Assembly (NCBI GenBank): GCA_024518585.1 | Contig: JANIHI010000001.1 | Location: 1 to 64,000 of the forward strand | From: Methanolinea sp. | Lineage (GTDB): Archaea > Halobacteriota > Methanomicrobia > Methanomicrobiales > Methanospirillaceae | Length of the DNA stretch: 64,000 nt | Direction of reading: 5' to 3' | Part shown: positions 2,458 to 63,895 of the stretch, in pieces | Layout: every line of letters begins with the position of its first letter | Numbering within the stretch: position 1 is the stretch's first letter | The notes under the pieces: generated by a model | Seen by the model: the letters and a program-made list of their open reading frames with translations, nothing else | Told to the model about the DNA's origin: nothing | Database searches by the model: none | Position numbers and translations under genes: made by a program

Positions 2458-4083
<1,626 letters not shown>

Positions 4084-4356
4084 CTAGACGATCTTTGCGA
4101 CGATATCCTTGAAGGGGACAAAAACGTATGTCTCCCTGTCGATCTCAAACGTCTCTGCACTGTACCCCCCGTAGAGGATGTGGTCCCCGGGCTTGAGGGG
4201 GAGCGGGGAGCCGTCCTCGCGGGTCCCGACCGAGATGACAGAGCCCTGTTTTCTCTGTTCCCGTGCAGTCTCAGGGATATAGATACCACTCTTCGTCTTC
4301 TCTTCCATCTGGATTGGCTTGACAAGAACCCTTTCACCGATAGGAATGATCTCCAT
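4084..4356 (-). CDS. groES: Co-chaperonin GroES
   Basis: A 90-residue GroES subunit, the heptameric lid of the GroEL cage. It has the N-terminal strand IPIGERVLVKPI, a mobile-loop region (EEKTKSGIYIPETARE) and the roof segment PGDHILYGGYSAE. GGAGGTG about ten bases before the ATG supports the start. It is first in the groES-groEL operon, transcribed from the AT-rich region shared with the divergent regulator gene at 4500. Confidence 0.96.
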   Translation of the reverse strand: MEIIPIGERVLVKPIQMEEKTKSGIYIPETAREQRKQGSVISVGTREDGSPLPLKPGDHILYGGYSAETFEIDRETYVFVPFKDIVAKIV

Positions 4357-55046: not shown

Positions 55047-56513
55047 ATGGATACAAAAGGGAACAGGGAGGAGCCGGACCTCCCCTGCCATGGTTGTATC
55101 GTCGGTGGAGAAGAACGTTTCACGGGGGATGTCAGGACCGTCCGGTTCCCTTTCACGGGAGAGCCCTTTGCACGGGTGCACCAGGCAACGCAAAGGGATC
55201 TCGAGGATGCCGTCGAATCGGCAGCCCGGGGGTTCTCCGAGACCCGCGAACTCTCCAGTGCAGAGCGGTACCGCATCCTCGTGGACCTCGCCGGCATGGT
55301 CCGGCAGGAATCAGAGAATCTCGCCCGGGTCCTCGTCATGGAAGGGGGAAAGACGATCACCTTCGCCCGGGCCGAAGTCCAGCGCGTCATCGAGACGCTG
55401 CGGGTATCTGCAGAGGAGGCCAGGCGGATTGGCGGCGAGGTGATCCCCCTTGACTGGACTCCCGGCAACGAGAAGCGGTTTGGGATCACGCGCCGCATGC
55501 CCCTTGGAGTCGTCGTTGGGATCGTCCCCTTCAACTTCCCCCTGAACCTCGCCTGCCACAAGCTCGGCCCGGCGGTCGCCTCCGGGAATGCAATCGTCCT
55601 CAAACCGGCATCGGCAACACCGGTTTCCGCCATTTTGCTTGGAAAAATGCTCCTTTCGGCAGGTTTTCCCGCACCGGCCTTCAGTGTCGTCCCCTGCCCG
55701 GGTAACCGTGCGGAGAGGCTTGTTGGGGACGACCGCGTCTCGTTTGTCTCGTTCACGGGGAGTGCCGGTGTCGGGTGGACCCTCCGGGAAAGGGCATGCA
55801 AAAAGAGGGTCTCGCTCGAGCTCGGGGGGAGTGCCCCGGTCATCGTCCACGAAGACGCAGACGTCGCGTATGCCGCATCCCGGATCGTCCAGGGCGGGTT
55901 TTCAAACGCCGGCCAGGTCTGCATCTCGGTCCAGAGGGTCCTGCTCCACGAAGCGGTGTATGACCAGGCATGCCGCGAGATATGCCGGGGTGCCGAAAGC
56001 CTTGTCACCGGCGACCCGCGGCGCGAGGAGACCACCGTCGGGCCCCTAATCAGCAGGGAGGCAGTGGAAAAAGCCCTCGCGATGGTCCGGGAAGCACAGG
56101 CAAAGGGCGCAAAAGTCGTCACCGGCGGGCATGCCGAGGGGACACTCATGGTCCCGACAGTTGTCACCGGGGTGACCCCGGGCATGAGACTCTTCCAGGA
56201 AGAGGTTTTTGCCCCCGTCGTTGCCCTCTGCCCGTATCGTGACTTTGGCGAGGCCATCTCCCTTGCCAACGCCACTCCCTGGGGGTTACAGATGGGACTC
56301 TTTACCCGGGACATCAACCTGATACTCGAGGCCTTTTCGGGGGGCGAGTTCGGGGGCATACAGGTCAACGACGTCCCGACGTTCCGGGTCGACCACATGC
56401 CATACAGCGGCGAGAAGGCATCGGGACTCGGGAGGGAGGGGCCACGGTATGCCATCGAGGAGATGACGGTGCTCCGCCTCCTCGCTTTCAACCCGAAGGG
56501 AGGTATTCGATGA
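55047..56513 (+). CDS. NAD(P)-dependent aldehyde dehydrogenase
   Basis: A 488-residue ALDH-superfamily enzyme. It has the cofactor and active-site motifs GVVVGIVPFNFPLNLACHK, FTGSAGVGWTL, the general base in SLELGGSAPVIV and the catalytic Cys in FSNAGQVCISVQRVL; FGGIQVNDVPTFRVDHMPYS is typical. Related archaeal enzymes include lactaldehyde dehydrogenase CofA, which feeds F420 synthesis, and non-phosphorylating glyceraldehyde-3-phosphate dehydrogenases; the substrate cannot be fixed here. It shares ATGA with the following SLOG gene. Confidence 0.88.
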   Translation: MDTKGNREEPDLPCHGCIVGGEERFTGDVRTVRFPFTGEPFARVHQATQRDLEDAVESAARGFSETRELSSAERYRILVDLAGMVRQESENLARVLVMEGGKTITFARAEVQRVIETLRVSAEEARRIGGEVIPLDWTPGNEKRFGITRRMPLGVVVGIVPFNFPLNLACHKLGPAVASGNAIVLKPASATPVSAILLGKMLLSAGFPAPAFSVVPCPGNRAERLVGDDRVSFVSFTGSAGVGWTLRERACKKRVSLELGGSAPVIVHEDADVAYAASRIVQGGFSNAGQVCISVQRVLLHEAVYDQACREICRGAESLVTGDPRREETTVGPLISREAVEKALAMVREAQAKGAKVVTGGHAEGTLMVPTVVTGVTPGMRLFQEEVFAPVVALCPYRDFGEAISLANATPWGLQMGLFTRDINLILEAFSGGEFGGIQVNDVPTFRVDHMPYSGEKASGLGREGPRYAIEEMTVLRLLAFNPKGGIR

Positions 56514-56971
56514 ACGGCCGGGCGAGGCCCGTGCAGGTCGCTGTGGTCGGGGCAGGTGACTGCAGCGAGGAAGAGGGACGTGCTGCCGAAGAGATCGGGA
56601 TGACCCTTGCAGAAAACGGTGCAATCCTCATATCGGGCGGCCTCTCCGGGGTCATGGAAGCCTCCTGCCGCGGGGCTGCAGCGTCCGGGGGTTTTGCGGT
56701 CGGGATTCTCCCGGGAACGGGGGATGGAAACCCGTACCTCTCCGTCCGGGTCAGGACAGGGATGTCCCATGCACGGAACTACATTGTCGTCGCGAGTGCG
56801 GACGCCGTCATCGCCGTCGGGGGAGGATACGGGACCCTGTCAGAGATAGCCTTCGCACTAAAGGAGGGAAAACCGGTCTTTGGGTTCCGGACCTGGGACA
56901 TCCCGGGGGTCACTCCCTGCCCGACCCCGCGGGATGCCTGTTTTAAGGCACTCTCCGCCGTGCCCCGGTAA
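56510..56971 (+). CDS. SLOG-fold protein of the TIGR00725 group
   Basis: A 153-residue Rossmann-like LOG protein (QVAVVGAGDCSEEEGRAAEE, ILISGGLSGVMEASCRGAA, GGGYGTLSEIAFALKEGKPV). The GGGxGTxxE motif is typical of LOG/lysine-decarboxylase-like nucleotide-binding proteins. The TIGR00725 subgroup has no assigned reaction. It is translationally coupled to the aldehyde dehydrogenase. Its 3' end overlaps the convergent moeA-PBP gene by 29 bases. Confidence 0.85.
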   Translation: MNGRARPVQVAVVGAGDCSEEEGRAAEEIGMTLAENGAILISGGLSGVMEASCRGAAASGGFAVGILPGTGDGNPYLSVRVRTGMSHARNYIVVASADAVIAVGGGYGTLSEIAFALKEGKPVFGFRTWDIPGVTPCPTPRDACFKALSAVPR

Positions 56972-58793
56972 GTTCCGTCCTGTACCCCCCCATCCTTTCG
57001 AGGGCAGCGCGGAAACCCGGGGACGAGACGGCAGCAACGAGCGCCTGCACCCTCTGGTCGTCCAGGGCAGGGACAGGGATGGCAAGTTCGTACCTCTCGC
57101 TCGCCACGGGGACAAAGGAGAGTCCAAAAGCCCGTGCTGCAGAAGCGACCCCCATCCCTGCCTCGGCCTCCCCGCTTAGGACCGCGAGGGCGACGGCAGT
57201 GTGGGTAGGGACTTCGCGCTCGTACCCCGGGATGTCCCGTGGCGAAATCCCCCTCTTGTGCAGTTCATGGTCGAGGAGCATCCGGGTTCCCGAGCCCTTC
57301 TGGCGGTTGATGAACCTCTTCCCGGGCAGATCCTCGAGCGAAAGCCCTGTTTTTGACATGATCCCCTGTTCCCTCCCGGCGACACAGACCAGTTCGATCC
57401 CGGTTCCCTGCAGGTACTTCCCGATGAACGGAACGTTGTAGTCGCCGTTCTCGGCGAGCAAATGCATGGGCGCTGCATGGCAGTCACCCTTGCGGAGGGC
57501 AAGGAGCCCTCCCATGCTCCCGACATGGGACGAGAAGAGGCCGATTCCCCTCGCGTTCAGGATGTCTGCGAGCAGGTCGAGGGCAGGATCGTGGCTCCCC
57601 GTGACAACGAGCGCGGAGGCTGCCCTGTCCATGCCATCCGAAAGCCGGACGGGGACCTTTTCACCGGCCAAAAACCCTTCCACCGATGCGGGGATGCAGA
57701 TATACCCGTTCGAGCGGACCGCGCTCATCTGGACCCCCGACCCCCGGGAGAGGGGTGTTGCAACCCACTGCCCGCCGACGTTCCCGCAGGAGACAAGCAC
57801 GAACTCGTCCACCCCGGCCTCGGAGTGGAGGGTTGTTGTCAGCCGGGCATCGACCATCGAGTACCCAAAGACCGGTATACCCGATACGGAGAGGAGATGA
57901 CTGACGAGTTCGCGGAGCACCGTGAGTGCCGAGAGCGGGTAGCCGGGCATCCCGATGACGGGGACCTCCCCTACGGCACCGATGATGACCGGTTTTCCCG
58001 GCTTCATGGCAACCCCATGGACGTCGACCCGGCCCACGTCTGCAAGGACATCCGCCGTGTAGTCCCTGGTCCCTGCAGAGGAGCCGGCCGAGACGATGAC
58101 GAGATCGTTTTCCCGGACGGCCGAGAGGATTGCCTCGCGGATGAGGGCCGGGTCGTCCCTGACGGGGGGATACCGCGTGCATTCACCACCGTGACCTGCC
58201 AGCCATGCTTCTGCAAGACGGGTGTTGCTCTCGACTACCTGCCCCGGGCCCGGCCTTGTCCCCGGGACAACAAGTTCGCTCCCCGTCGGGATGAGCCCGG
58301 CACGGAAGTACCGGACCGGGACGTGGGTGATCCCGTAGGTCGCGAGGGCCCCGATATCCTGGGGACGCACGCGGTGGCCGGAGGGGAGCACCATCTCGGA
58401 CTCGGCGATGTCTTCGCCGGGAGGCCGGACGTGCTGCCAGGGACTCGCGGGTCTCCGGATCAGGAAGGCGTCGCCCTCCTGCCAGACCTCCTCGATCATG
58501 ATGACCGCATCGTACCCGGGAGGGACGACGTTCCCCGTGTTGACCGGGACGGCATCCTTCAGGATAACCGGGGACTGCTCTCTGGCCCCGGATGTATCGG
58601 CGCTCCGGACGGCAATCCCGTCCATTGCAGCAATGTGTTCCCCGGGGACGGAGTACGGGGCAAAGAGGGGCCGTGCAGTGACCCGCCCGCAGGCCTCCGG
58701 GAGGGGCACGGACTTCTCCCTGCAGGGGACCGGCGTCCTGGCAAGGGCGGCCCTCGCTTCCGATAGGGAGACGACCGAGAGGTACCTCTTCAC
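56943..58793 (-). CDS. MoeA fused to a periplasmic-binding-like domain
   Basis: A 616-residue fusion. Residues 1-400 are MoeA (AMDGIAVRSADT, PPGYDAVIMIEEV, IPTGSELV, SAGSSAGTRDYTADVL, GVAMKPGKPVIIG, GMPGYPLSAL), which inserts Mo or W into adenylated molybdopterin. Residues ~410-616 resemble the PBP-like (LysR-substrate/ModE-associated) domain (VTGSHDPALDLLADILNARG, RFINRQKGSGTRMLLDHEL, GEAEAGMGVASAARAFGLSF). The GTG at 58793 shares GTGA with the upstream moeA; GTG 58796 is an alternative. The extra domain may bind oxyanion or a small ligand. Confidence 0.92.
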   Translation of the reverse strand: MKRYLSVVSLSEARAALARTPVPCREKSVPLPEACGRVTARPLFAPYSVPGEHIAAMDGIAVRSADTSGAREQSPVILKDAVPVNTGNVVPPGYDAVIMIEEVWQEGDAFLIRRPASPWQHVRPPGEDIAESEMVLPSGHRVRPQDIGALATYGITHVPVRYFRAGLIPTGSELVVPGTRPGPGQVVESNTRLAEAWLAGHGGECTRYPPVRDDPALIREAILSAVRENDLVIVSAGSSAGTRDYTADVLADVGRVDVHGVAMKPGKPVIIGAVGEVPVIGMPGYPLSALTVLRELVSHLLSVSGIPVFGYSMVDARLTTTLHSEAGVDEFVLVSCGNVGGQWVATPLSRGSGVQMSAVRSNGYICIPASVEGFLAGEKVPVRLSDGMDRAASALVVTGSHDPALDLLADILNARGIGLFSSHVGSMGGLLALRKGDCHAAPMHLLAENGDYNVPFIGKYLQGTGIELVCVAGREQGIMSKTGLSLEDLPGKRFINRQKGSGTRMLLDHELHKRGISPRDIPGYEREVPTHTAVALAVLSGEAEAGMGVASAARAFGLSFVPVASERYELAIPVPALDDQRVQALVAAVSSPGFRAALERMGGYRTELTGARRRVP

Positions 58794-59995
58794 CACAGCA
58801 CCACCTCGACGGTCGTTCCGGCCTCAAGCCCCTCGCTCCCTGCCGGGACACGGACCATCCCGTCAGACTCAGCGAGCGTGTTGAGGAGACCCGACTTCCC
58901 GAAGAGGGGGACTGCCCGCCCGCCGTCGAGCCGCACCCTGATGTAGTCTTCCCTGCCCCGGGCGGACGGGATGTTCTCTGCAAGGACCGCGAGGATCATA
59001 GGCCTTATGCGTGTCTCTTCCCCGCACAGTGCACGGAGGAGGGGACGTGCGACCGTATCGAGAACGACGAGTGCAGAGGCCGGGTGACCGGGGAGCCCGA
59101 TGACAGGTTTTTTCCCGCACCTGCCGATGATGGTTGGCTTCCCCGGCGAGATGGCTATCCCATGGACGAGGACTTCCCCCAGTTCGGCGATGAGGTCAGC
59201 CGTAAGGTCGCGCTCGTCCTTGGAACTTCCCCCCGAGAGGAGAACGGCATCGTTTTCGTCGAGGGCCCGCCGGAGTGCCAGGGCAAGTGCCCCGCGGTCG
59301 TCCGGGACGATACCGTAGGTTTTCTCCCGGCAACCGCACGTGCGGAGGTATGCTGCTATCATCGGCCCGTTGCTGTCCCTCACCCTTCCCTCTCCCGGGA
59401 CCTCGCGGGCATCGACAAGCTCGTTTCCCGTGGAGATCACGCCGACCCGTGGCATCGGGAAGACCGGGACAACAGAGCACCCGATGGCTGCAAGGACCCC
59501 GCAGTCTGCAGGCCGGAGCCTCCGGCCGGCACGGAGCGCGGGCCTGTCCCGGGAGAAGTCCTCTCCCCTGCGGACGATGTTCTCCCCGCTCCCAACCGGT
59601 CTCCTGACGAGGACCTGGTCCCCGATGACCTCGCAGTCCTCGACCATGACAACGGCATCGGCACCCGGCGGAACCGCCCCGCCGGTCGGGACGTAGGCAC
59701 AGTGACCCGCCCTGACTTCGGACCCCGCCCCTTCCCCCATCCTGACAGTGGCAGAGAGGGTGAGGAGCGAGGGGATAGCCTCCCCTGCCCCGGCGGTATC
59801 AGAGGCAACGACAGCATAGCCATCCACCACGGAGCGATCAAAGCCCGGGATATCGAGATCGGGGTAGACGTCCCCGGCCAGCACCCTGCCGACAGCCTCG
59901 TTGAGGGGTACTTCTTCCGGGGGGAGAGGGCGTGCAATGCCAGCCGCGATGCCTATTGCCTCTTTCACGGGGATGGTTTTAAGAAAAATGCTCAT
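58790..59995 (-). CDS. moeA: Molybdopterin molybdenumtransferase MoeA
   Basis: A 401-residue MoeA. Motifs are FDRSVVDGYAVVASDT, PPGADAVVMVEDCEV, VGVISTGNELVDAREV, LLSGGSSKDERDLTADLIAE, GIAISPGKPTIIG and GLPGHPASALVV. It is a paralogue of the following fused MoeA. In methanogens the products feed formylmethanofuran dehydrogenase and formate dehydrogenase. The ATG overlaps the stop of the 59-residue peptide gene (ATGA), so the three genes form one coupled operon. Confidence 0.94.
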   Translation of the reverse strand: MSIFLKTIPVKEAIGIAAGIARPLPPEEVPLNEAVGRVLAGDVYPDLDIPGFDRSVVDGYAVVASDTAGAGEAIPSLLTLSATVRMGEGAGSEVRAGHCAYVPTGGAVPPGADAVVMVEDCEVIGDQVLVRRPVGSGENIVRRGEDFSRDRPALRAGRRLRPADCGVLAAIGCSVVPVFPMPRVGVISTGNELVDAREVPGEGRVRDSNGPMIAAYLRTCGCREKTYGIVPDDRGALALALRRALDENDAVLLSGGSSKDERDLTADLIAELGEVLVHGIAISPGKPTIIGRCGKKPVIGLPGHPASALVVLDTVARPLLRALCGEETRIRPMILAVLAENIPSARGREDYIRVRLDGGRAVPLFGKSGLLNTLAESDGMVRVPAGSEGLEAGTTVEVVLW

Positions 59996-60171
59996 TTAAA
60001 GCAGCCCAGCTGGCATGCACGGATCTTGATGCCGTGCACATTGCAGTACCGGGCAATGTCCATCTTCGGGATACCGTACTTCTCTGAGAGTGCAAATGCC
60101 TGGGGGCACTTGATCTCATTGACGATTCCTTCCGCTTCAAAAGCCTTCCGTACTTTCTCTTCGTCCATCAT
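59992..60171 (-). CDS. 59-aa cysteine peptide heading the moeA operon
   Basis: A 59-residue protein beginning MMDEEKVRKAFEAEG. It has a helix-turn-helix-like middle (ALSEKYGIPKMDIARYCNVH) and four cysteines: C22, C43, C53 and C57, the last two in ACQLGCFK. It could bind metal or a sulfur ligand. Its TGA overlaps the moeA ATG by four bases. A TATA (TTTTTTTATAC, about 60198-60208) lies 27-37 bases before the ATG, giving a leaderless message. I do not recognise the family. Confidence 0.72.
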   Translation of the reverse strand: MMDEEKVRKAFEAEGIVNEIKCPQAFALSEKYGIPKMDIARYCNVHGIKIRACQLGCFK

Positions 60172-60461
60172 ACCATATATGGGACAGGAGTGGTATAAAA
60201 AAAATTGACATTTGCCCTCATGTTAAGCTAATAATTTAAACTCTTCCCAGGAGTCCGGGTCCTTCGTCCGGTCAGGTCGTGGCTGGGGACACAGTCGTAT
60301 GCCCCTGGATTGGCATGGCCGAGAAGGTCTAGGGCCTTCCAACGAAAAAAACCACCTGATTCTCTCTGAAACACAAGGATACAAAATGAAAATCGCGGGT
60401 GCGATTGTCAATGGAAAAAGGAAATTGGGGGGAGGCCCCGTAGAGGGGGCTTATCCACCGG
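60172..60461. other. Gap with promoter, possible small RNA and hairpin
   Basis: No protein gene is supported. It holds the minus-strand TATA of the moeA operon (60198-60208), a plus-strand TATA-like AATTTAAAC (about 60233-60241), a structured GC-rich stretch (about 60250-60345) and the fourth ATGAAAAT-type hairpin (60386-60411) near the end of the surface-protein gene. Confidence 0.5.
60386..60411. repeat. ATGAAAAT-type hairpin, fourth copy
   Basis: ATGAAAATCGC-GGGT-GCGATTGTCAT-like inverted repeat followed by GGAAAAAGG, as in the block at 6293-6448. It lies about 50 bases beyond the 3' end of the minus-strand surface-protein gene, so it is again at a gene end. Confidence 0.65.
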
Positions 60462-61148
60462 TTACTCCTTCCGCCGGACGGCAAGGAGACCGGCAGCACC
60501 GACAGCGACGGGGACCAGGATGGCCACCAGGGGTGACTTCGTGGGAGTCGGCGTGGGTGCGGGGTTGAGGGTCGCATACAGGTCGACGGTCTCACCCTTC
60601 CCGGGGTACCGGTCGATCGTGCCCGTATAGACCTGGTACCCCGGCTTCGTGACGGTGTATGTCCGGAAAGGTGTTGCAGTCGTGTACACCTGGACCGTCA
60701 GGACGCCGTTCGTGATGACTCCCTGGGGGGAGTTATCGAACGAGACAGAGGCACCATCGACATTGCAGTGGACGGTGAACCACCCGACGTCCCCGCCGAT
60801 AAGGGGGGGCTGGGTCGGCTGCATGGGGTTCAGGGTTGCATACAGGTCAAATGTCTCCCCTTTCCCGGGAACACCGGGAATCGTGTCACTGAATGTCGTG
60901 TAGCCCTCTTTCTGGACGGAATAGGTCTTGTACGGGGTCCCGGTGGTGTACACCGGGACATTCAGGACACCGCCCTGGATGTCCCCCTTGTATTCCCCGT
61001 CGAAGAATACCTTTGCACCATCTTCATTGCAGTGAACGGCATACCACGCCTGGTCGCCGCCGATAGGGGCCTCTGCCCCGGCCGGGAGGACTGCAAGGAT
61101 GACCCCTGTGACCAGCACGGCCATGAGAAATCGCATCGGAATTTCCAT
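60462..61148 (-). CDS. Exported surface protein with two PEGA-like repeats
   Basis: A 228-residue secreted protein. The signal peptide covers about residues 1-27 (FLMAVLVTGVILAVLPAGAEA). Two tandem ~73-residue beta-rich repeats follow: WYAVHCNEDGAKVFFDGEYK ... KGETFDLYATLNP and WFTVHCNVDGASVSFDNSPQ ... KGETVDLYATLNP, each with one Cys. They resemble PEGA-type carbohydrate- or surface-binding repeats. A Thr/Pro linker (PAPTPTPTKSP) leads to a C-terminal membrane span and RRKE, like a sorting or anchor signal. ATG 61148 or 61136 may be the start. TATA TTTTAAATG (about 61190-61198). Confidence 0.85.
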   Translation of the reverse strand: MEIPMRFLMAVLVTGVILAVLPAGAEAPIGGDQAWYAVHCNEDGAKVFFDGEYKGDIQGGVLNVPVYTTGTPYKTYSVQKEGYTTFSDTIPGVPGKGETFDLYATLNPMQPTQPPLIGGDVGWFTVHCNVDGASVSFDNSPQGVITNGVLTVQVYTTATPFRTYTVTKPGYQVYTGTIDRYPGKGETVDLYATLNPAPTPTPTKSPLVAILVPVAVGAAGLLAVRRKE

Positions 61149-61157
61149 CTCAATCAC

Positions 61158-61493: not shown

Positions 61494-62807
61494 ATGAAGA
61501 TCGCCCTTGTCAGCTCTCTCCAGGACCCCGGTGGATGCACCATCCACGATGCCCTCCTCGCCCTTCTCGGGGAACCTCACGGGGCATATCCCCTGGAACG
61601 ACACGACCTCTCCCACCACAGGGTAAAGGACCGCCTCATCTACCAGGACCATATCGACCGGGACATTGACGCAGACCTCATCATCTTCCTCTCCCGCCAT
61701 TCATCGAAGAATCCCGTCCCGGTCCTGACCGTCCACGTAACCGGTAACTTCACGACCGCTGACTTCGGAGGGAGAGAGGGAACTCTCGCGCCCTCCGCAC
61801 CCGCCTGGATGCAGGCGGTGCTGCGGGAACTGGCAAAGAACGCTCCCTCCCCGTTCCGCGTCGCGTACGAGGTGACGCACCACGGTCCGACCGAGCTCTC
61901 CACCCCCTCCCTGTTTGCCGAAGTCGGGAGCACCGAGCGGGAATGGAGTGACCGGGCTGCGGGCCTGGCGGTTGCACGGAGTGTGCTCTCTGCCGACCAT
62001 GCTGACTGTATTCCCCTGATCGGGTTTGGCGGAACGCACTACGCAGCCCGGCAGACCCACATCGCACTCACGACACGGGGGGCGTTTGGGCACATTGCGC
62101 ATTCCCGGGAGGTGCCCTCGCTCGATGCCGGGATGGTCCGGCAGATGCGGGAGAAGTCCGGGGCCATTGCAGCCTTCATCGACCGGAAATCACTCCCGTC
62201 CGGTGAACTGGCAAGGCTGCTCGAGATCCTCGCCCGGGAGGACATCCCGGTCGTCCCGGAAGAACACCTCGTCCACATGGGGAGACTTTCGTGGGATTCC
62301 TACCGAAAGATCCTTTTCCTTGCCGAGGGGCTTTCTCCCGGGGGACGTGTTGTTCTCTGCGGAGACTGGCCGGACGGGACCCCCCACGTCATCGACATCT
62401 TCCCCGGGCTCCTCGAAGAGGCCCTGCGGTGCAACATGGCAGAGTTCCTGAAGGGAACAGACGTCGTCCCGGTTGCCCGGGTCTCTACCCCCCGAATACC
62501 GGTATTGTCCCGTTTCATAACTATACGGGAACAGAGGGACGAAGTACTGCATCATTTAATAAGCTTATGTGTAAACATCTTACGTAAAGGGGAAAGTACG
62601 TTCATGGAAAAGGACTGCCTGACCATCCGGAGGAGGGTTTTTGACCCGGAAAAAGCCCGGGAACTTGGTGTTCCCCGTGGACCCTGTTTCGGCCGGCTGA
62701 TGAAGGGCGAAACCGTGCTCGTGGCAGGGAGGGAGATCACCCCTGAGATGGTGACAACGGTGGCAGAGAGACGCATTCACATCCCGGGACTGGAGAAGTT
62801 CATATGA
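61494..62807 (+). CDS. dtdA: D-aminoacyl-tRNA deacylase DtdA, long form
   Basis: A 437-residue archaeal DtdA (GEK1 type), which removes D-amino acids from tRNA using zinc. The N-terminal ~285 residues hold the family motifs [58 protein letters not shown] and [17 protein letters not shown]. The C-terminal ~150 residues ([20 protein letters not shown] onward) extend beyond the short form and end with a compact domain ([20 protein letters not shown]). It overlaps ftsZ by four bases. Confidence 0.93.
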
Positions 62808-63895
62808 GGTCGATTGTCGAGGAGGCCCTGACCAGGGCGGACCAGAATTTGCCTGGAACAACAAAGAACAACGAGGATCTTGACCAGATTCTCAAAGAAC
62901 TCAGGACCGAGATCGCCGTTATCGGGTGCGGGGGGAGCGGGTCCAATACCATTACGAGGATGAAGGAGGAGGGCATCCACGGAGCCCGGTTAATTGCCAT
63001 CAATACCGACGCACAACACCTCTCCCGCACGGTTGCCGACCAGCGAATCCTCATCGGGAGACAGAGAACACGCGGCCTCGGGGCAGGGTCAATACCCCAG
63101 ATCGGGGAAGAGGCGGCACTCGAGAACGAGGAAGAGATCAAGAAGGCCGTTGCAGGCTGCGACATGGTCTTCATCACGGTCGGCCTCGGGGGAGGCACGG
63201 GGACGGGAGCTGCCCCGATCGTCGCCAAGGCAGCGAGGGATGAGGGGGCCCTCACCATCGGGGTCGTCACCCTTCCCTTCACGGCAGAGGGTGTCATCCG
63301 GATGGAGAACGCCGAGGCAGGCCTCGAAAGGCTCCGGGACGTGGCAGACACGGTCATCGTCGTCCCGAACGACCGCCTCCTAGAAGTCGTGCCCAAGTTA
63401 CCCCTGTATGCAGCGTTCAAGGTTGCCGACGAGGTCCTGATGCGAGCCGTTAAGGGGATCACGGAGCTCATCACCCTGCCCGGTCTTGTGAACCTCGACT
63501 TTGCCGACGTCCGCACCGTCATGGAACGGGGAGGCGTCGCGATGATCGGGGTGGGCGAGAGCGAGAGCGAGGAAAAAGCAGCCGACTCGGTCAAGAAGGC
63601 GATCCGTTCCCCCCTGCTCGATGTCGATATTTCCGGGGCCCATGCTGCCCTCGTCAACGTCGTCGGTGGCCCGGACATGACGATGGAGGAGGCCGAAGGT
63701 GTCCTCCAGGAAGTCTACAACCGGATATCTCCTGATGCGCGGATCATCTGGGGAGCACAGATAGACCCCAATATGCAGAACAAGATGCGTACCATGCTCG
63801 TGGTAACCGGGGTACGGTCGCCACAAATATATGGTAGGAATGAAAAAATTACCCCCAAAGTCCAGAAGCAGTTCGAGATCGACTTTTTGAAGTGA
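62804..63895 (+). CDS. ftsZ: Cell division GTPase FtsZ
   Basis: A 363-residue FtsZ, the tubulin-like ring protein of cell division. It has a ~35-residue N-terminal extension, then [20 protein letters not shown], the tubulin signature [20 protein letters not shown] near 120-139, the synergy loop region [15 protein letters not shown], and a short C-terminal tail. The start overlaps dtdA (ATGA). It is followed after five bases by secE, a common archaeal order. Confidence 0.96.

Follow-up and report, generated by a model that had tools for sequence, protein, structure and literature searches.

The gene at 59992-60171 of the window, the whole 64,000-nucleotide stretch of Methanolinea sp. DNA analysed here, encodes, to judge from comparative data, a real protein rather than a chance frame. 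Its product is a member of an order-wide, apparently undescribed family of mini-proteins tied to the maturation of Mo/W cofactors. A frame of 59 residues with four cysteines, claimed by the sequence-only reading, is indeed present; it runs from 60171 to 59992 on the minus strand and reads MMDEEKVRKAFEAEGIVNEIKCPQAFALSEKYGIPKMDIARYCNVHGIKIRACQLGCFK. The peptide counts 59 residues from the first methionine and 58 from the second, the latter start being the one mostly kept among relatives, and its cysteines occupy residues 22, 43, 53 and 57 of the window protein. The gene lies among the following features.

56510-56971, plus strand: TIGR00725-type gene, convergent with moeA2 (Moco carrier protein 2iz5, E 6e-18)
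56943-58796, minus strand: moeA2 fused to a PBP_like domain (PBP_like 9e-64), overlapping the moeA1 stop
58790-59995, minus strand: moeA1, molybdopterin molybdotransferase (MoeA_N 5e-44, MoCF_biosynth 3e-33, MoeA_C 7e-18)
59992-60171, minus strand: Cys4 mini-protein gene (conserved frame, purifying selection, HTH-like AlphaFold model)
60194-60199, minus strand: TTTATA box, its centre about 25 nt 5' of the first ATG

The TGA stop of the peptide frame (59994-59992) overlaps the ATG of moeA1 (59995-59993) as ATGA, in line with the earlier claim. The GTGA overlap claimed for moeA1 and the fused moeA2 depends on the start codon of the latter, for which two consecutive GTG codons are candidates: the second (58793) gives GTGA, the first (58796) an overlap of 7 bases. 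The fused protein matches NF011068 with 671.8 bits against a cut-off of 534. The portion of PMC13328260 drawn on here regards the presence of two MoeA copies as a sign that Mo and W are both used. The TIGR00725-type gene, whose relatives include the Chlamydomonas Moco carrier protein (PDB 2iz5), has a homologue in 15 of the 58 long loci and could belong to an island of Mo/W cofactor genes.

Homologues of the peptide are present in 98 of the 100 genomes of the order when single-sequence and profile searches are combined. The single-sequence search matched 59 of 61 relatives at E 0.01 or better. The profile (41 rows), applied to a sample of 392 genomes of the phylum (83 in the order, 309 other), matched 81 of the 83 same-order genomes, with 39 new beyond the first 61, and two of the 309 others, both weakly; 289 genomes absent from its match list were assumed to lie outside the order, the list being ordered by kinship. 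The two weak matches (G108, G366) were judged to be chance, as neither reaches the C-terminal cysteine pair and that of G108 also contains a stop. The two genomes of the order without the peptide are G016 and G020. We take the order to be Methanomicrobiales from the names of the peptide loci in the genome collection, the contigs of which were scanned with exact 8-residue patterns from the window peptide; named loci belong to Methanolinea, Methanoculleus, Methanoregula and Methanofollis, as well as to other Methanomicrobiales or Methanoregulaceae. Nothing convincing was found among the viral contigs or plasmids searched. An ending resembling IKIxxCxLGCF may also occur in bacterial hypothetical proteins.

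Comparison with the two nearest sequences yields dN/dS values of about 0.07 (0.034/0.469) and about 0.13 (0.038/0.301), indicating purifying selection. Pooled pairs with unsaturated synonymous sites give a pS of 0.52 and a pN of 0.30, a weaker contrast that is expected because these pairs are distant. A chance open frame or an antisense shadow could be suspected at this position, since a plus-strand frame of 374 residues (59084-60208) overlaps the peptide, as is expected in GC-rich coding DNA. However, the breadth of the homologues, the excess of synonymous changes and the fixed promoter spacing already refute this explanation, whose probability we regard as negligible. The long frame, antisense to moeA1 and the peptide gene, is itself probably a shadow that arises from the GC-rich coding sequence.

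The genomic neighbourhood was scored by one script for 101 peptide places in 98 genomes. Conservation of the frame upstream of moeA in relatives, the lack of which would have refuted the sequence-only reading by its own terms, is seen at 86 of these places, where the peptide gene lies directly upstream of a same-strand moeA. The junction is ATGA at 79 of them, TGATG at three and a short gap at four (G025, G047, G330, G401). The remaining 15 places are of several kinds. At four the gene lies between a divergent tupABC and a convergent fdhA (G056, G246 and the second copies of G356 and G361), and at three it is convergent with fdhA (G198, G335, G241). At two places fwdBAC and a sulfite-reductase-like gene precede the peptide gene, which faces mobB (G288, G406); one further place lies near fwdA/fwdC (G018). 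In G033 and G310 the peptide gene stands between the TIGR00725 gene and dtd2-ftsZ, with the moeA pair missing from the site; in G033 a moeA pair is now the first element of a run that also includes a ferredoxin-like gene, fwdD (by family scan) and a fwdB-like gene. Two places adjoin the sulfur assimilation genes metX/metY (G013, G029), and the last (L141, 4989-5165, minus strand) is the second copy of G288, which is degenerate and has lost Cys57 and the GCF ending. Neighbours were named by family scans for L142, L146, L096, L102, L104, L095 and L196, and by frame inspection for the other loci. The relocations are few and mostly fall in one genus (g29), so their counts are not independent.

Several details of these loci were recorded alongside. 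The G241 copy (L139, about 3963-4126, minus strand) contains an in-frame stop and is probably a pseudogene beside fdhA. In L140 and L146 the sulfite-reductase-like gene comes directly after the fwd genes, followed by the peptide gene and then by mobB on the opposite strand. A HepT-like protein (L104, 4108-4668, minus strand; NF047751 at 56.5 bits, just below the 60-bit cut-off) adjoins the peptide in a metX/metY locus.

Persistence of the peptide gene without a moeA neighbour, together with its tendency to adjoin other Mo/W genes, indicates that the peptide works in trans and is more than a switch for MoeA levels. The earlier proposal had been a small regulator or metal-sulfur carrier that sets MoeA levels in response to Mo or W. 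Its link to Mo/W gains strength from the places away from moeA yet beside fdhA, tupABC, fwdBAC and mobB, whereas the setting of MoeA levels is not supported, the gene being retained where the moeA pair is missing and elsewhere away from moeA.

A small set of residues is nearly invariant: over the 101 copies, Cys22 is kept in 101, Cys43 in 99, Cys53 in 100 and Cys57 in 99, next to Lys49 (99), Gly56 (99) and Phe58 (100). The truncated G241 copy accounts for one miss in these counts, and the peptide of G030 carries leucine in place of Cys43. The spacing of the cysteines is C-x20-C-x9-C-x3-C; in some lineages the stretch from the second to the third is longer by two residues. Zinc-ribbon mini-proteins carry two CxxC knuckles; the peptide has no such CxxC-CxxC pattern. 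Near-invariance of the cysteines and of Lys49 matches a reactive or ligand site better than a protein that reads DNA.

AlphaFold predicts a small HTH-like fold with a CxxxC tail (mean pLDDT 84, pTM 0.64), in which helices span residues 4-14, 22-32 and 36-46, strands span residues 19-21 and 49-51, no wing is seen and the cysteine tail has lower confidence. Foldseek returns no match under E 0.001, and VIA-align ranks homeodomain-like folds and other small helical ones highest, with Z up to 4.5, a range typical of common arrangements. The helix-turn-helix-like core read earlier from the sequence hence agrees with the AlphaFold model, but its matches to solved structures are weak. No convincing sequence family was found in Pfam, NCBIfam or the PDB for the window peptide, nor in Pfam for 41 members scanned at E up to 1. 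DUF438, matched by the window peptide at E 0.22 and by the best member at 0.036, and NF006251, which 17 of 41 members match (best E 3.4e-4; cut-off 212 bits), were both put down to chance.

Comparison with known small proteins helps to place the family. DsrC/TusE proteins are small HTH-type scaffolds with one or two cysteines in a C-terminal arm, which work with cofactor or sulfite-reductase machinery. The peptide likewise has a small scaffold, predicted to be of HTH type, with cysteines in the C-terminal arm (Cys57, the third residue from the end of the window protein), and two of its copies follow a sulfite-reductase-like gene. In contrast, it is about half the size and has four near-invariant cysteines, and it shows no match to the DsrC family in Pfam (41 members, E up to 1) or in the PDB profile search (E up to 10). 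FeoC-like proteins are tiny winged-helix proteins with four cysteines, encoded beside iron transport machinery. The peptide is also a tiny four-cysteine protein, of predicted HTH type, encoded beside the machinery of one metal, although its cysteine spacing differs, its link is to Mo/W rather than iron transport, and it matches FeoC neither in Pfam nor by PDB profile. FeoC and DsrC chains are absent among the Foldseek and VIA-align matches listed, an absence that proves nothing. ModE and Tfx are HTH-type regulators of Mo/W genes. The peptide is predicted to share the HTH-type shape, and a Tfx-like gene lies near one of its loci (L102), but it has no match to ModE, TOBE/molbindin or TFX_C (Pfam; ModE and TOBE also in NCBIfam).

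The region upstream of the gene offers information about its expression. Among 82 distinct regions upstream of moeA-adjacent peptides, the motif RTAAAYnMTAT occurs at -36 to -39 in 36, against 0.15 in shuffles. The exact motif is absent from the other 46, including those of the window's own genus, where a TTTATA-type box lies nearer to the start. Shine-Dalgarno-like 4-mers occur in four of the 82 regions, compared with a shuffled mean of 6%. Promoter spacing and the absence of a ribosome-binding site thus support a message that is leaderless or nearly so; the claim of a leaderless start gains from the box about 25 nt before the first ATG and from the scarcity of Shine-Dalgarno-like 4-mers, and falls short of proof. 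A regulon marked by RTAAAYnMTAT was rejected, as the motif is rare across 12 genomes and its other exact sites mostly do not precede recognisable Mo/W genes. In the Methanoregula-like loci L071-L076 and L094, an imperfect inverted repeat (GTAAACAC...AT / ATAGTGTTAC), considered as a dyad operator, was seen by eye over the promoter and start codon; it was not seen in the Methanoculleus loci. No Rfam element was found near the peptide gene, the window containing a single tRNA.

The explanation we favour, with confidence somewhat short of even, is that the peptide may be a trans-acting Cys4 protein that assists the maturation of the Mo/W-pterin cofactor, perhaps by carrying sulfur or metal. It is favoured because of the co-translation with MoeA, the near-invariant cysteines and Lys49, and the drift of the gene towards loci of other Mo/W enzymes. 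The two places beside metX/metY also speak for it, as do the Cys-less FdhD and the NifS/SufS-class enzyme of the window's genome (see below). The comparative data establish conservation of the peptide and of its cysteines, the coupling to moeA and the Mo/W neighbourhoods, whereas we infer the leaderless message, a joint action with MoeA and the handling of sulfur or metal. In the proposed mechanism, the peptide would be translated together with MoeA from a leaderless message, so that both would be made in matched amounts. Its HTH-like scaffold would bear a Cys4 site (Cys22, Cys43, Cys53, Cys57), the near-invariant Lys49 and a C-terminal CxxxCF tail, and could pass on either persulfide sulfur or a metal bound by thiolates while formate and formylmethanofuran dehydrogenases are being built; the recipient would be the MoeA-bound cofactor or, as the next carrier, FdhD. 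Against such a carrier, the Cys4 site may be purely structural, holding Zn or Fe-S, and the conserved promoter and the HTH shape also suit a regulator. Furthermore, the family was not found in the rest of the phylum, whose members likewise make Mo/W cofactors, and the peptide is thus no universal need. G020, with formate dehydrogenase genes but neither FdhD nor the peptide, and the genomes that combine the peptide with a Cys-type FdhD count against the favoured role as well.

The main rival to an accessory protein is a metal-sensing regulator, which we consider unlikely though well worth weighing. A single domain would bind DNA through its HTH and an Fe-S cluster, Zn or a Mo/W-thiolate through its four cysteines, and would control its own operon along with other Mo/W genes. 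The HTH-like model with its weak homeodomain-like matches, the well-conserved promoter and the divergent arrangement with tupABC in some loci would all agree with such a role. However, the promoter motif marks no regulon and is replaced by a different sequence in the window's own genus, and the face of the second HTH helix carries a conserved D-I-x-x-Y-C-N rather than variable basic residues. Regulators are also seldom coupled 1:1 with an enzyme, which would make the present coupling unusual.

The conserved coupling itself (ATGA or TGATG at 82 of 101 places), combined with the near-invariant cysteines, could also be read as the mark of a small partner of MoeA, either a structural subunit or an aid to its folding, whose Zn or Fe-S site would be structural and which would perform neither sulfur nor sensing chemistry. 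We hold this to be improbable: the gene is retained at the 15 places not beside moeA, two of which lack the moeA pair at the site, and G016 and G020 have MoeA pairs without the peptide. The conserved ATGA overlap might also reflect a cis-acting leader frame, the translation of which merely drives re-initiation at moeA while the peptide itself is functionless. A dN/dS of about 0.1 and near-invariant Cys, Lys and Phe residues speak against this, retention away from moeA already opposes it, and hardly any weight is left for it.

A more specific form of the accessory role is that the peptide would be the missing sulfur donor, or the sulfur/metal relay, for the Mo/W bis-pterin cofactor. It would take sulfur from a cysteine desulfurase or from sulfide, deliver it to the cofactor while this is bound to MoeA or to a Cys-less FdhD, and represent a new, 59-residue kind of carrier; we rate this as decidedly improbable. 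According to the sections of PMC10609526 drawn on here, FdhD serves to sulfurate the bis-PGD cofactor that formate dehydrogenase uses, and the FdhD of Methanococcus maripaludis also lacks transfer cysteines, for which section 7 of this 2023 review suggests a different sulfuration mechanism. The peptide is proposed to serve the same step as FdhD, a sulfurtransferase and Moco chaperone, but is unrelated to it in sequence and has no FdhD-NarQ domain in Pfam scans. In the window genome, the only FdhD match (L213, G000:C24:7200-8100) lacks the sulfur-carrying cysteine of the E. coli loop; its own loop reads STGAIG, versus SGCGG in other FdhDs and GCGVCG in E. coli. Complete absence of a cysteine desulfurase from this genome is opposed by an Aminotran_5 protein (E 1.7e-114) of the NifS/SufS class, a match that shows the class and not the substrate.

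Replacement of FdhD by the peptide can be rejected, because FdhD is present in 59 of 61 genomes. Among 45 distinct FdhD loops inspected, which are part of all FdhD matches (L188 repeats L218), Cys-type and Cys-less forms both occur, sometimes within one genome. All 16 genomes whose single FdhD match is Cys-less have the peptide (G000, G003, G004, which is 67% complete, G007, G009, G010, G012, G017, G018, G019, G024, G035, G039, G044, G054 and G059). Of the peptide-less genomes, G016 has a Cys-type FdhD and G020 has none. This pattern is consistent with a role in sulfur supply; with just two peptide-less genomes, the correlation is not significant. In several genomes, e.g., G022, G027 and G038, the peptide occurs alongside an FdhD that has the loop cysteine, and the peptide is hence not a simple FdhD substitute. 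G020 (L149) has formate dehydrogenase genes over the cut-off, yet neither FdhD nor the peptide. In G016 (L148, L152), about 35 kb separate moeA1 from moeA2, and formate dehydrogenase alpha was not found at the cut-off.

None of the papers listed on MoeA in methanogens, Moco sulfur carriers, Moco carriers and winged-helix Cys proteins deals with the peptide, to judge from titles and abstract openings. If the accessory role holds, a methanogen order dependent on formate and formylmethanofuran dehydrogenases has a specialised factor, as yet without a name, that serves to mature the Mo/W cofactor and that length cut-offs and family databases miss. Cofactor sulfuration with a Cys-less FdhD, a question left open in section 7 of PMC10609526, would then become testable, and the factor might aid heterologous production of archaeal W enzymes.

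On the far side of the peptide gene, a PEGA-domain protein (60462-61157, minus strand) adjoins it in the window. Beyond this, at 61494-63895 on the plus strand, a D-aminoacyl-tRNA deacylase gene overlaps ftsZ by 4 bases, a pair that lies near the peptide in 31 of the 58 long loci.
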